This document shows positions 38,184-50,307 of a stretch of DNA of 64,000 nucleotides, piece after piece. Numbering within the stretch: the stretch's first letter is position 1; every line of letters starts with the position of its first letter. The stretch lies in the NCBI GenBank assembly GCA_003290165.1, contig QNQO01009140.1, positions 44,612 to 108,611 on the forward strand, in the 5' to 3' direction. This DNA is from Berberis thunbergii. Its lineage: Eukaryota; Streptophyta; Magnoliopsida; Ranunculales; Berberidaceae. The notes below the pieces were generated by a model, which was given only the letters and a program-made list of their open reading frames with translations, ran no database searches and was not told the DNA's origin. The translations under genes were made by a program, and so were the position numbers.

Positions 38184-38204
38184 CACTACAACAAATATGT
38201 TTTA

Positions 38205-38600
38205 AGCGGGGTTTCCCAAAGCGCCGGTAAAGCTAAACATATGCCGGTTTTGAGCATTCACGGCATTATAAGAAGCGCCGAAAAGCGCCGGTAAAGGTAC
38301 ATGCCGCCAAAAGATTAACGGCGCTTTTTGTAAAGCGCCGGTTAAAAGTGACCAGTTGCGGCGCTTTGAAAGCGCCGCCAAAGATTATATTAGCGCTGCT
38401 AAATATATGGATATTACATTTCCCTTTTGTGGAAACGCCGTATTTATAGCTTTTAGTGGCGCTTTAAAAGCGCCGGTTATGTAAAAAAAATATTTTACAA
38501 TATTTGTTGCGACGCTTTTAAAGCGCCGGTTGTCTTAACAAATCTGTAAAAAAACCTACATTTTAATGGCGCTTTGGAAGCGTCGGTTATGTTAACATAC
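38205..38600. repeat. Left subterminal GCGCCGG repeat array
   Basis: About a dozen copies of gcgccggt, gcgccgcc and related words occur in both orientations within 400 bp of the left terminus, separated by ttaaaagc-type spacers. In En/Spm such subterminal motifs are the binding sites of the accessory protein (TNPA), which brings the ends together. The same motif fills the right end. Confidence 0.85.
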
Positions 38601-38782
38601 TGGAAAAAAAAATCAATAAAAATAAAAATAAAACCTGTCATTGGGACGGAAAAAACAGACTGTAAATTTTGTAATTTCATATCATCTACTAAAATCTCCT
38701 TCAGTAACAAATAAACTCAAAGCACACTAATTTTCTACGGTAACAACCATATATTACGACCTGCAACATAGGCAGTGCATCC

Positions 38783-39147
38783 TTATACATCCTTGTATTT
38801 TTCATATTCATCCATTCTATGTCTTAAACTTTTGTCATGTTGAACAACATCAAGTGCACTGAAAAGTTTTCCTCTTACTTCATTCCAAGCATAGTCCACG
38901 TTGCTTTGGTGATCACTCTTCAGGATACTGCAAAAAGGAAAAATCTAACTAAACTCAGAATAAAAAGTTAACTCAACCCTACCATCAATTCATATGCGTT
39001 AACCTTATAAAATGGTCAAGGAAAAGAACTCAAAAATGTTCATTACAGTACCCTTACCTACCAGAAGAAGTGTTTGCAGGCACAGCATCATCATCTAACA
39101 TTTTTCCAGGATAAGAATACGCCTTGCCAGACGGTGCTACTCCAGCA
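38783..39147 (-). pseudogene. Captured fragment of an unidentified gene, two exons with stop codon
   Basis: Exon one (about 39,147-39,058) reads DVAGVAPSGKAYSYPGK and then MLDDDAVPANTSSG, ending at ag|gtaagg. A 130-bp intron ends in ttgcag. Exon two (38,927-38,783) reads ILKSDHQSNVDYAWNEVR, then GKLFSALDVVQHDKSLRHR, and finishes with a stop after KYKDV. The frame is continuous across the splice. The fragment thus brings a genuine gene 3' end to the edge of the transposon. I do not recognise the family. It adjoins a myosin fragment on its 5' side without a gap. Confidence 0.6.
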
Positions 39148-39388
39148 ACATCTGATGTAATGCGGCTCTGTCGTGCTCAGAGTTTCCATTAATGATTGAA
39201 GTTGTTGCTGCAATATGGTTCATGATGCAATGATCACACAGAGCCTGTAAGATCTTATTATCAATAATTTAGTGTTTTGATCTGAGGAAAGTTCATTTAC
39301 CTTGAAACGTGTACCAATGGAAGAGAACTTGGATTGCTTTGAACTTTCCTCTGGTAAAGGAGGAAATAGATTTGTGACAAAAAAAATA
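39148..39388 (-). pseudogene. Captured myosin XI-type motor fragment
   Basis: The first coding piece (about 39,388-39,301) reads FVTNLFPPLPEESSKQSKF and SSIGTRFK, then a donor aag|gtaaat. After a 93-bp intron ending in ttgcag, 39,207-39,148 gives QQLQSLMETLSTTEPHYIRC. This is the actin-binding loop and the strongly conserved EPHYIRC block of the plant class XI myosin head. Only about 50 residues of a motor domain of roughly 730 are present. The block ends at 39,148 by fusion to an unidentified gene piece. The preserved intron shows that genomic DNA was captured. Confidence 0.85.
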
Positions 39389-39443
39389 TTGAGAGGATAA
39401 CCATCATGTTAAGAATAGAGTCATCAAACAAGTAAAACTCTAC

Positions 39444-39932
39444 CTTTTGGAAGTCCCCTGTTGTGTGAGCAACAACATCTTCCTCAAGGGATCTCTTAAA
39501 GCGAGCATGATAGGCTTGTCTAGCCAACAACAGATCATGTGGAGACCTTGTGCAAGCTATTTCCAACAGAACCCGGTTGCTAGCAGTCCACTTCTTTGTA
39601 GCTTCATTAGCTAAGTAAGCATCACGTTCAGCAGGATCCAAAGTCCACAAAAGCACAGATCTCTGAACAAATTGTCAAGTTAATAGATATGCAGAGACAC
39701 TTTAAAGTTCAAAATGTTAAGCTTTAATTAGTAAAAAAAATTGCACATCAATCAAGGAAAAAAATGGCAGTTTCGAATTAACCAACCTCAAAATCACTTG
39801 AAAGTTCCTCTTGCAATGCCTTGAGGAGATCTTCTCCATAAATTCCAGCATAAGTTTCTCGAATAAGTTTGCGCTGTTTTGCATTTCTGTGAGCCAGTAT
39901 TGATATGATCAACTTCTCATTTGTTCCCCATC
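39444..39932 (-). pseudogene. Captured annexin fragment, two exons
   Basis: Exon one (39,932-39,787) encodes GWGTNEKLIISILAHRNAKQ and RKLIRETYAGIYGEDLLKAL, the first annexin repeat with its GWGT calcium-site loop. After an intron with gt...ag borders, exon two (39,662-39,444) reads SVLLWTLDPAERDAYLANEA, TASNRVLLEIACTRSPHDL and KRSLEEDVVAHTTGDFQK, ending at a good donor (ag|gtagag). Plant annexins are about 315-residue, calcium-dependent membrane-binding proteins of four repeats; about 120 residues from repeats 1-2 are present. The frame is open and splice sites intact. The start codon and the later repeats are missing, and a myosin fragment follows directly downstream. Confidence 0.9.
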
Positions 39933-48110: not shown

Positions 48111-48114
48111 TGTA

Positions 48115-48640
48115 AAATCTCTAATCCGGCGTTTTCAGCGTCTTATACGGCGTTTTTAAACTAAAATTTACTTTTATTAGCGGGATAATTCGCGGGTTTT
48201 TTTTCGCTCTTTCTCGGCGCTTTTACACAAAACGTCGGTCTTGTTAGCTCTTTACCGGTGCTTTTTACATCTAAACCGGCGTTTTCGAACCCAAAATTTT
48301 ATTTCGCGGGATTAATTCGCAGGTTTTTAATCGTAACAAGCGCGGGTTTTTTATCGTTACCCCGGCGCTTCTTAAATAACGCACCGATAGTGTAAGCTTT
48401 TGACCGGCGCTTTTGTTTTGAAGTGTCGGTAGTGTAAGCTTTTGACCGGCGCTTATTTACAGCTACTATGGGCATTTCAAAAAAAGCACAATTCTGTTTG
48501 CGATAGGATGGCGGGGTTTTATCTCGGCCGGCGCTTCATAACACAAACGCCGGTTAAGGGTAACCAATACCGGCGCTTGTAACATCTAAAGCGGCGTTGT
48601 AGAAAATATAATTTTTTTTTCATCAGCAGAGTCGGTTAAG
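48115..48640. repeat. Right subterminal GCGCCGG array, inner part
   Basis: About ten copies of ccggcgctt, ccggcgttt or their complements occur, with cgcgggtttt words between. The array continues at 49,870-50,290 after an interrupting segment. Confidence 0.8.
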
Positions 48641-49860
48641 GGTAACCAATACCTGTCCCTATCCCATCTCGTTCATACGGGATTTGAAATCATCATAAAG
48701 GGACCCCAGACAATCTGGCGTGCTCAACTGGATGGCCCCGTGAGCATTCAGCCGAGGGAAAGTCAGCAGATGGACCACCAGCGGAGTCAACCGAAGGTCA
48801 ACATCCTTCATCCTTCATACGGGATCGATACAGGACGGGATGGGACGAGATCGCGATCGATAAACCCATCCCTATCCCATCCCGTTCATACGGGATCGAT
48901 ACGGGACGGGAAGAGATCAACATGCTCTGATTATATGCATTTCATTTTCTTTAATCAATCTCATCATTTGGTTGCTTGCACTCATCTGTATATGTTAGAC
49001 TTCAAAGCATTCCACACCTGCAAATTGCTTATTCTTGAAGAAGAAACTATGCATCCAACAGTGCATTTTCAATCTTGAACAATATATTTGCTAAGTATAG
49101 AAGAACAAGTTTAAACAAACATAATGTACACAACGCAAAGAATAACACTCAGTTTTACCCTTGCATAGGTATCTGAGCTACCAGTGACAAAAACCGTTCC
49201 ACTAGCATTATATGCACAACACAATATTTGGTGGCTTGGTGGATCAGTACTAGTTGAGGGAACAGTGCTAGTTGAGAGCGTGGTGCTAGTTGTGGGATCA
49301 TTGCTCTTCCCTGCATATAATTACAAGTTAAGATTTCAGTTACCAAATTCCAAAAACCCCAGTCAACTAACCAACCAAAACACATAGTGTAAACTTGAAA
49401 CAAACCAGTGATAGCATCTGAAGGCTTTGGAATGTAAATGCGAGGACTAGCATAGGTATTTCTAATATCCCAGATACGACATGTACATCATCTGATGATC
49501 TAGTAGCTAGCAAGATAATAGAAAAAAAATCAGATACAAATTGAACTTTGAGAAATTAAAGTTTAATATTCATGTAGTAATTATGTAATAGGTAACTGCA
49601 AAAAATATGCTACCAAACCTCCATTGTAGGTATTTCTAAATGTTTAAATGGCAGAAAGTTGAGGGATGTATTCTAGAAAATACTCATCAATACCAGAGTG
49701 AAAAATTAACTTGGGACGGGACGGGGTTGGTAGTATTGAAAATATTCATCTCATCCCATTCTAGATCAAGACGGGATGAAATTATTCAATCCCATTAAGA
49801 CTTGGAAAAATCAGGACGGGACGGGATCGGGATTGCACGATGGGATGCCCAGCCATAGGA
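48640..49860. mobile_element. hAT-like element remnant inside the right CACTA end
   Basis: Both sides of this segment carry gggatgggacggg/cccgtcccgt repeats like the 26,562 element. The right end, gatgggatgcccagccata, is a degenerate inverse of taggggtgggcatcccatc. It splits the subterminal repeat array, and a WD40 gene piece lies in its middle. No target duplication could be confirmed. The phrase ggttaagggtaaccaatac occurs twice just to its left (48,553 and 48,628). Confidence 0.5.
49159..49519 (-). pseudogene. Captured PHIP/BRWD-type WD40 protein fragment, two exons
   Basis: Exon one (about 49,519-49,406) reads CRIWDIRNTYASPRIYIPKP and SDAIT. After an intron ending in atgcag, exon two (49,310-49,159) reads a serine/threonine-rich linker, then SHQILCCAYNASGTVFVTGS and SDTYARV, ending at a donor. 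These are consecutive WD40 repeats of plant bromodomain/WD-repeat proteins related to PHIP and BRWD. An in-frame stop near the start of exon one lies just before the conserved part, so the true left limit is unclear. It is on the same strand as the other captured pieces but 5' of the transposon gene. Confidence 0.8.
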
Positions 49861-49869
49861 TGGAGAGAT

Positions 49870-50290
49870 TTTTTTTATCTTGTCCGGTGCTTTGAATACG
49901 AAGCGCCGGTAATATCTGTAATTACCGACACCTTTACAAAAACGCCGGTCTAGGTCATTCTTTACCGGCGCTTCAATACAAGCGCCGACATTGTTCTCTC
50001 TTTACCGGCGCTTAATTGCATCTAATACGGCGTTTTCCAAAAAAAAAAAAATTTATTTTAGTTTTATCATTACCGGCGCTTCTGTGACTAAACGCCGGTA
50101 TTGGTATCTTTATACCGGTGCTTTGTAACCAAAACGCCGGTTTAGGTCGATCTTTAGCGGCGCTTCAGTAAAAACGCTGGCAGTGTTTTACCCCCAGTTT
50201 ATTACCGGCGCTTGATATCCTAATCGCCGTTATTGATTTTTTTTTACCGGCGCTTCCTATGAAACGCCGCCTTCAGAGTGCCGTTTTAGC
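49870..50290. repeat. Right subterminal GCGCCGG array, outer part
   Basis: Some fifteen copies of ccggcgctt, gcgccggt and aacgccggt lie in alternating orientation up to the transposon end at 50,307. They have the same core as the left array and are the presumptive binding sites for the element-encoded protein. Confidence 0.85.
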
Positions 50291-50307
50291 CTACGTTTTT
50301 TGTAGTG

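Follow-up and report, generated by a model that had tools for sequence, protein, structure and literature searches.

Plant DNA transposons are well known to capture genes, and the question is what decides which captures survive. A case in point is a CACTA element of Berberis thunbergii at positions 38184-50307 of a 64,000-nucleotide stretch of contig QNQO01009140.1 (contig positions 44,612 to 108,611), the whole of which is called the window below. Pieces of several host genes lie within the element, every recognised piece is on the strand of its transposon gene TNP1, and the same one-way arrangement extends to relatives with other cargo. The nearest precedent is Tgm-Express1 of soybean, a 5.7-kb CACTA element in an intron of F3H whose transcripts start from the F3H promoter (PMC1947982). 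There, one transcript includes all five fragments as spliced exons, implying one orientation, while the words orientation, sense and antisense are absent from the consulted portion of the Tgm-Express1 text in PMC1947982. The likeness to Tgm-Express that the original prediction proposed holds, since both are CACTA elements with fragments of several host genes, kept introns and canonical splice sites. The Berberis element differs in being 12 kb long, in lying within a copia-like gene, in its open TNP1 and in having relatives whose other cargo is also one-way; its splicing into chimeric transcripts of the Tgm-Express kind is predicted from intact splice sites.

Other described systems share parts of this design. 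Tpn1 elements of Ipomoea nil (PMC5105172) likewise keep their ends while captured host DNA replaces the interior, and they have an autonomous relative with both transposase genes; the consulted portion of that source describes neither a fixed cargo orientation nor a slot downstream of TNP1 among its 339 elements, against which the Berberis family counts 1190 candidate left ends. Pack-CACTA and Pack-TYPE elements are non-autonomous and hold captured genomic DNA between conserved ends (PMC8903248, PMC13317346), just as captured host genic DNA lies between CACTA ends here; unlike them, the window copy keeps TNP1, and its split right array is accounted for by a nested hAT element instead of by tandem fusion. 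The CACTA elements of the grapevine family Cactavine-5 also carry host sequence on the downstream side of their transposase gene (PMC2528002). The Jozin CACTA elements of Chenopodium (PMC8978399) hold captured gene fragments too, but in the 5' region, ahead of the first gene, whereas the Berberis cargo is downstream of TNP1. The consulted parts of PMC3288121, PMC2575219, PMC2773423 and PMC2686159 give no orientation rule for captured pieces, and no report of a family-wide rule of this sort was recognised among the open-access papers searched.

Direct reading confirms the predicted 12-kb CACTA transposon with CACTACAA-type ends and exact AGT duplications. The element spans 12,124 bp on the minus strand, its TNP1 gene being read from right to left, and its termini are CACTACAA, the left CACTACAACAAA starting at 38184 and the right TTTTTTGTAGTG finishing at 50307. 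The terminal inverted repeats begin with CACTA and are identical over their first 8 bases and at 11 of the first 12. Three further features place it in the CACTA (En/Spm) superfamily: a 3-bp target site duplication (AGT at 38181-38183 and 50308-50310), direct and inverted subterminal short repeats, and a TNP1/TNPA-type protein (PF03004). The subterminal motif, counted as GGCGCTT/AAGCGCC/GGCGTTT/AAACGCC, has 35 copies within the element, compared with 5 in the remaining 51,876 bp of the window. Its copies define a left array that includes the terminal inverted repeat (38184-38600) and a right array split into an inner part (48126-48610) and an outer part with the right end (49884-50307). By eye, the frames flanking the insertion resemble a copia-type retrotransposon gene; a 1151-aa open frame like a copia-type polyprotein (51997-55452, minus strand, by eye) lies nearby on the strand opposite to that gene.

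The TNP1 gene (45881-47491, minus strand) has six exons and encodes an open protein of 377 aa that matches PF03004 (Transposase_24) with E 1.6e-20 and 74.1 bits against a cut-off of 28.7; none of 5642 candidates in a protein collection matched it at E 0.001. A six-frame Pfam scan of the element found no TNP2 transposase (PF02992), and the element is thus a non-autonomous copy whose superfamily membership rests on its ends. A relative retains what it lacks. L016 has a complete Transposase_21 domain (E 8.8e-101) on the same strand with little TNP1 left. L015 carries the TNP1 block and, on its right, DNA in common with the TNP2 region of L016 (corresponding to 47684-47798 in the window), which makes L015 the strongest candidate for holding TNP1 and TNP2 together. 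Whole or largely whole TNP1 is present in nine of the 30 relatives fetched (L010, L015, L017, L019, L026, L028, L031, L032 and L034), some of whose stretches end early.

The search for other family members by their ends, which the original prediction had proposed, used a 717-bp left-end query against the 2.24-Gb assembly. It returned 1190 candidate left ends, and the 40 that were scored match at 91-100% over almost the full query. Sequence was retrieved for 30 of the 39 scored relatives, the first batch of 20 in 10-kb stretches from which the right parts are missing in several. All 20 have the left terminal array by which they were selected, and in all eight that are complete within their stretch the 3-bp duplications match. 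Equal duplications and block layouts mark L016/L027, L017/L019, L026/L028 and perhaps L009/L025 as possible haplotype pairs, such that copies do not equal events. Within the first batch, the left block with the myosin and annexin pieces extends to 40.4 kb in 12 to 20 relatives, the TNP1 region is present in about 2 to 8 depending on position, and the segment from 47.8 kb to the right end (50.3 kb) is present in 8 to 10. The interval from 40.6 to 45.37 kb is whole in only one of the 20 (L010) and partial in L011 and a few others.

This interval corresponds to a variable cargo slot (40600-45369, minus strand), and many of the 30 fetched relatives hold different cargo in it. On the right, a block common to 10 of 10 tested relatives starts at 45370. 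On the left, an edge at 40541-40543 is common to L013, L014, L015, L029, L031 and L035, and the left block common to several relatives stops between 40.3 and 40.54 kb, next to a TGC-rich repeat (40244-40365). In L011, about 5.3 kb unlike the window element (4727-10000 in element orientation), with window cargo on both sides, is likely a large nested insertion. The annexin piece occurs at no fewer than 40 genome places at 97-100% (40 scored of 68 candidates), and all or part of the malonyl-CoA:ACP transacylase (MCAT) piece at no fewer than 40 (40 scored of 67); all of these scored matches are close copies of the piece. An MCAT sub-piece (40607-40872, query 313-578) has identical two ends in 24 of the 40 scored MCAT matches, as expected of a spread cassette. 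Much of the cargo was therefore inherited or reshuffled, and the idea that this very copy collected its own cargo is unsupported.

Within the window element, all six frames (stops read as X) were scanned against Pfam and PDB. On the minus strand, Pfam recognised annexin (two exons), the V-ATPase A N-terminus, DUF707 and Transposase_24. The PDB scan of this strand again recognised annexin and V-ATPase A and added myosin (E 6.2e-6) and a PBL2-like kinase (E 1.3e-4), with nothing in frame 3. On the plus strand, none of the three frames matched a Pfam family up to E 1, and the single PDB chain scored E 0.61, in agreement with the original observation that all recognised pieces lie on the minus strand.

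The scan was extended to the fetched relatives, 13 of which supplied 18 cargo segments that were read in all six frames against Pfam at E 0.01. The others were set aside because their cargo was repeated or none was their own (L019, L022, L024, L027, L028, L031, L033, L034, L035 and L037), because they have little or no cargo (L009, L012, L025 and L030), because they carry the window element's cargo (L010 and L011, the unmatched stretch L011 4727-10000 being set aside with them) or because of a large nested insertion (L023). Inside scanned relatives, L018 6200-6990 was omitted, as were L016 2551-4890 and L026 6936-7800, which repeat others. Sense frames gave 16 Pfam families, host and transposon together, with 12 from 33 frames of the first batch and 4 from 21 frames of the second, while the 54 antisense frames of both batches gave none. 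Among the first-batch families, Transposase_21, Transpos_assoc, DUF4216 and DUF4218 are the element's own and DUF7599 is of unclear origin. The cargo was placed in specific relatives: SWIRM in L015, UBC in L018, DUF7599 in L013-L015, a weak AMP-binding match under the cut-off in L014, TauE, also under its cut-off, in L029, a receptor kinase at 4769-4512 of L017 (PDB kinases at E 3.6e-15 for the stretch) and, likely and by eye, PAN in L032. Outside the count, sense frames alone show by eye a MATE-like exon in L032 and SWEET- and ERD6-like exons in L036, the SWEET exon matching PDB 5xpd at E 1.8e-11.

By host gene type, the two-strand scans found 13 in sense and none in antisense, for which the two-sided p is 2.4e-4 provided that the types are independent. 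The window element contributes annexin, V-ATPase A, DUF707, myosin and a receptor-like cytoplasmic kinase (RLCK), and the relatives contribute kinase, E2F, UBC, SWIRM, AMP-binding, PAN, GDSL and TauE. Without E2F and GDSL, 11 types remain (p 9.8e-4), and a count limited to the eight with the strongest support (annexin, V-ATPase A, myosin, RLCK, kinase, E2F, UBC and SWIRM) gives p 0.0078. The chance of 1 in 128 first quoted for the orientation is correct for eight independent pieces. The sense bias thus stands and reaches relatives with other cargo, as a sense-only rule for whatever the scans could read. Polyadenylation signals are also unevenly distributed. AATAAA occurs 37 times in sense and 102 times in antisense across 14 cargo segments, and 4 and 18 times in the window element, against 67 and 75 elsewhere in the window; antisense cargo would therefore be likelier to end a transcript. 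The cargo is T-rich in the sense direction in 10 of 12 segments. Between captured pieces of L029, a repeat-like frame rich in arginine and leucine (4686-5276, element orientation) has a base skew opposite to that of other cargo.

The window cargo itself is read from right to left, and all of the following pieces lie on the minus strand. Nearest to the right block is a CUE-domain protein piece with an exon at 44958-45130 and a terminal exon with a stop codon at 44710-44796; it matches plant CUE proteins at up to 82%, from scattered plants (best 120 of 2050 matches), and the high score of protein P0001 in that comparison is owed to a doubled tail. Next come an RLCK fragment (44441-44522; PDB PBL2 at E 1.3e-4, RIPK-type kinase at E 3.5e-5) and a possible branching-enzyme fragment of 12 residues (44248-44285), seen by eye with an intact AG acceptor and no profile match. 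The DUF707 piece has two exons of the N-terminal part (43632-43743 and 43351-43545), read as exons with a host-copy match, and a third exon at 42689-42793 (PF05212 at E 0.0012, below cut-off; closest host copy found). A V-ATPase subunit A N-terminal exon (41716-41835) is interrupted and resumes beyond the interruption to a GT donor at 41169. MCAT exons lie at 40857-41020 and 40683-40750, and joined they match TIGR00128 at E 2.2e-4, far below that family's cut-off. Two annexin exons, 39787-39932 (repeat 1) and 39444-39662, have intact AG...GT edges and match in Pfam and PDB.

Further left, a myosin motor fragment (39152-39207, class XI by eye, PDB 7dhw at E 6.2e-6), with a mean identity of 99.2% over 32 rows (some places entered twice), is joined straight onto UNK_a (39058-39151), a widely common exon-like segment with a GT donor at its end. 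L036 has a longer form of this common 3' exon (2-281, element orientation) with extra reading frame upstream, and the myosin piece therefore seems to be a replacement of part of that exon. UNK_b (38783-38927), a second widely common segment with a stop codon, is a predicted terminal exon; its mean identity of 98.1% (27 rows, at most 7 of them places counted twice) exceeds that of its flanks (93.9% and 93.7%). The read exons carry AG acceptors, plus GT donors wherever the exon end is present (that of DUF707_b begins one base inside the printed end), and these canonical edges are no independent test, as exons were chosen with splice sites in mind. Substitutions in the captured and UNK exons follow no clear codon pattern, and no coding selection is claimed. 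Of the eight host genes originally listed, annexin, myosin, MCAT, V-ATPase A, DUF707, RLCK and CUE remain and PHIP falls away; the count stays at eight if the 12-residue branching-enzyme piece is included.

The PHIP/BRWD-like WD40 fragment (49111-49487, minus strand, likeness by eye; Pfam E 0.0017, below cut-off) lies within a nested hAT-type element (48651-49860) with TAGGG-type ends and, in L018, an 8-bp duplication GGTTGGAG on both sides. The CACTA element therefore did not capture it directly; it arrived as an independent insertion with its own target duplication, the outcome that the original prediction had named as refuting. The left tip of the hAT element is kept in L022, L024, L026 and L028, while in the window element, L009 and L025 it is lost to a 21-bp copy of the nearby array (48551-48571). 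The right tip is matched in 13 of the 30 fetched relatives, and the other 17 show no right block reaching 49.8 kb in the fetched stretch; within the family, this WD40-bearing insertion is an old one that relatives have in common. Tandem fusion, as in Pack-CACTA elements, was considered as the source of the two-part right array (48126-48610 and 49884-50307) and set aside when the nested hAT with its own duplication appeared in relatives; the other junctions seen are replacement blocks. A second insertion, a hAT-type miniature inverted-repeat transposable element (MITE) at 41185-41715 with ends TAGGGGTGGG/CCCACCCCTA and duplication GGTGGCAG at 41177-41184 and 41716-41723, interrupts the V-ATPase exon. 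L010 and L011 have the MITE-free site with a single GGTGGCAG, and the MITE is a later insertion. A non-autonomous hAT-type element elsewhere in the window (26562-27691, minus strand; ends TAGGGGTCGGCA / TGCCCACCCCTA, duplication CTCAAAAT) is kin of the hAT carrying the WD40 piece.

The exons are kept with their introns, and the source was therefore genomic DNA, as originally proposed; the closest host copies of DUF707 and CUE match through intron sequence. For DUF707, C10540:58305-61430 and C1557:97375-100505 each align over three collinear blocks with identities of 87, 83 and 84%, and the first of these crosses an intron (exon-intron-exon). The same spacing in both suggests two haplotypes of the assembly. 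The piece has four further near-full copies at 98-100%, the window copy included, and one split copy in C575. For CUE, C7246, C298 and C933 align in two collinear blocks at 87-89% and 93-94%. We regard these loci, which may be intact genes, as descending from the source genes. The search for parents thus succeeded to the extent of the closest copies of DUF707 (83-87%) and CUE (87-94%), the annexin and MCAT searches returning close copies of the piece. At 45193/45194 (query 176/177) the CUE piece breaks sharply into an unidentified exon-like piece (45194-45334) that matches other genome places at 95-99%; with its sides matching different places, this point is a chimeric join.

Beyond the element, the window holds a plant snoRNA (small nucleolar RNA) R71 at 59040-59146 (minus strand; Rfam RF00097, 55.3 bits), frames like gypsy-type reverse transcriptase and gag-protease at 9508-10536 (minus) and 59816-61965 (plus), and a frame like an exon of a host glycosyltransferase (GlcAT14-like) at 7657-8310 (minus), the frames all by eye.

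How could the family come to hold host DNA in one direction? We give about even chances to the following account, in which the window element is a non-autonomous CACTA copy without TNP2, its large family holds varying host pieces in a slot downstream of TNP1, and backward pieces are absent through selection against a broken read-through transcript. Host pieces would come in when a gap is wrongly repaired from a genomic DNA template, and cassettes would later be reshuffled among copies; the swapping of cargo blocks between fixed edges fits both steps. One predicted transcript would start at the right end, pass through TNP1 and the slot, splice sense exons and introns, and stop at the common exon near 38.8 kb. 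Antisense cargo would add poly(A) signals and unspliced sequence and so halt this transcript early, and selection would remove the copies in which backward pieces break it. Copies now without TNP1 would hold cargo that was selected before that loss. A stronger form of the idea, which we put forward tentatively and hold to be less likely than not, is that the family is an orientation-filtered exon collector, in which any host gene may enter the slot, only sense pieces persist, and a working copy needs one spliced read-through RNA ending at the family's terminal exon.

Several points weigh against selection on a read-through transcript. The PPR piece of Cactavine-5 is in the opposite orientation in the consulted part of PMC2528002, and a sense rule is therefore not general to CACTA elements. 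All eight first-batch relatives that are complete within their stretch are short and lack most of TNP1; present-day copies can therefore persist without a TNP1 transcript, and with TNP1 lost from so many copies, any selection of this kind had to act on ancestors that still bore TNP1 or else on a different function of the RNA. The TNP1 stop codon precedes the cargo slot, so an early poly(A) site may spare TNP1. Any T-rich plant intron is expected to show a shortage of AATAAA on the sense strand, and 2 of 12 cargo segments have no sense-type base skew, one of which (L017) holds the sense kinase. Open reading frames show no clear strand difference (sense and antisense: 79 and 65 at 50 aa or more, 42 and 41 at 60 aa, 28 and 24 at 70 aa), which speaks against taking them as proof of orientation. 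The count itself is softened by E2F (L021, no right end confirmed) and GDSL (no member assigned), which were not placed between two element ends, and by AMP-binding, TauE and DUF707, which score under Pfam's cut-offs; joint uptake of pieces may lower the number of independent events. As for the common 3' exon, the alignment rows of UNK_b hold 13 gaps that are not multiples of 3, which argues against strict coding, and the exon (UNK) has no match in NCBIfam, Pfam or a protein collection (455 candidates, none at E 1 or better).

Some of these observations would sit comfortably with a capture step that is itself directional, where same-orientation tandem fusion, or template switching between T-rich intron strands, joins genes sense to sense and no later selection is needed. 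Such a step requires no TNP1 transcript, which suits the many relatives without TNP1, and it fits the sense T-richness of 10 of 12 segments; the 21-bp direct copy at the hAT junction resembles a template-slip scar. In the consulted parts of the literature, Pack-TYPE elements are described as inserting locally in the same orientation and fusing (PMC8903248, PMC13317346), and Pack-TIRs as filling gaps under the guidance of microhomology (PMC8277862). Tandem fusion, however, orients transposon copies, and host DNA between them should be random, and we consider directional capture possible but the less probable account. Rather unlikely, even as a partial explanation, is a counting effect by which a few ancient composite captures, reshuffled as cassettes, mimic many independent ones. 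The recurrence of the annexin and MCAT pieces speaks for it, as does the fact that pairwise common blocks inside elements are all on the same strand (two minus-strand pairs fall outside elements or in short repeats); yet the cargo comes from as many as 13 distinct host gene types, and DUF707 and CUE match different host loci, with a two-source join mapped at 45193/45194. That the pieces are independent later insertions and not captures is very improbable. It holds for the MITE and for the WD40-carrying hAT element, but no other examined piece has its own ends or target duplications, and partial exons with introns abut one another at the subset of junctions mapped.

A family that combines about a thousand candidate copies and many cargos with a single slot and what looks like a one-way rule may allow capture bias to be separated from selection. 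If the rule reflects selection on splicing, the family would be a natural exon-shuffling experiment, and if it does act as an orientation-filtered collector, each working copy would come with host exons already fused behind a transposon promoter.

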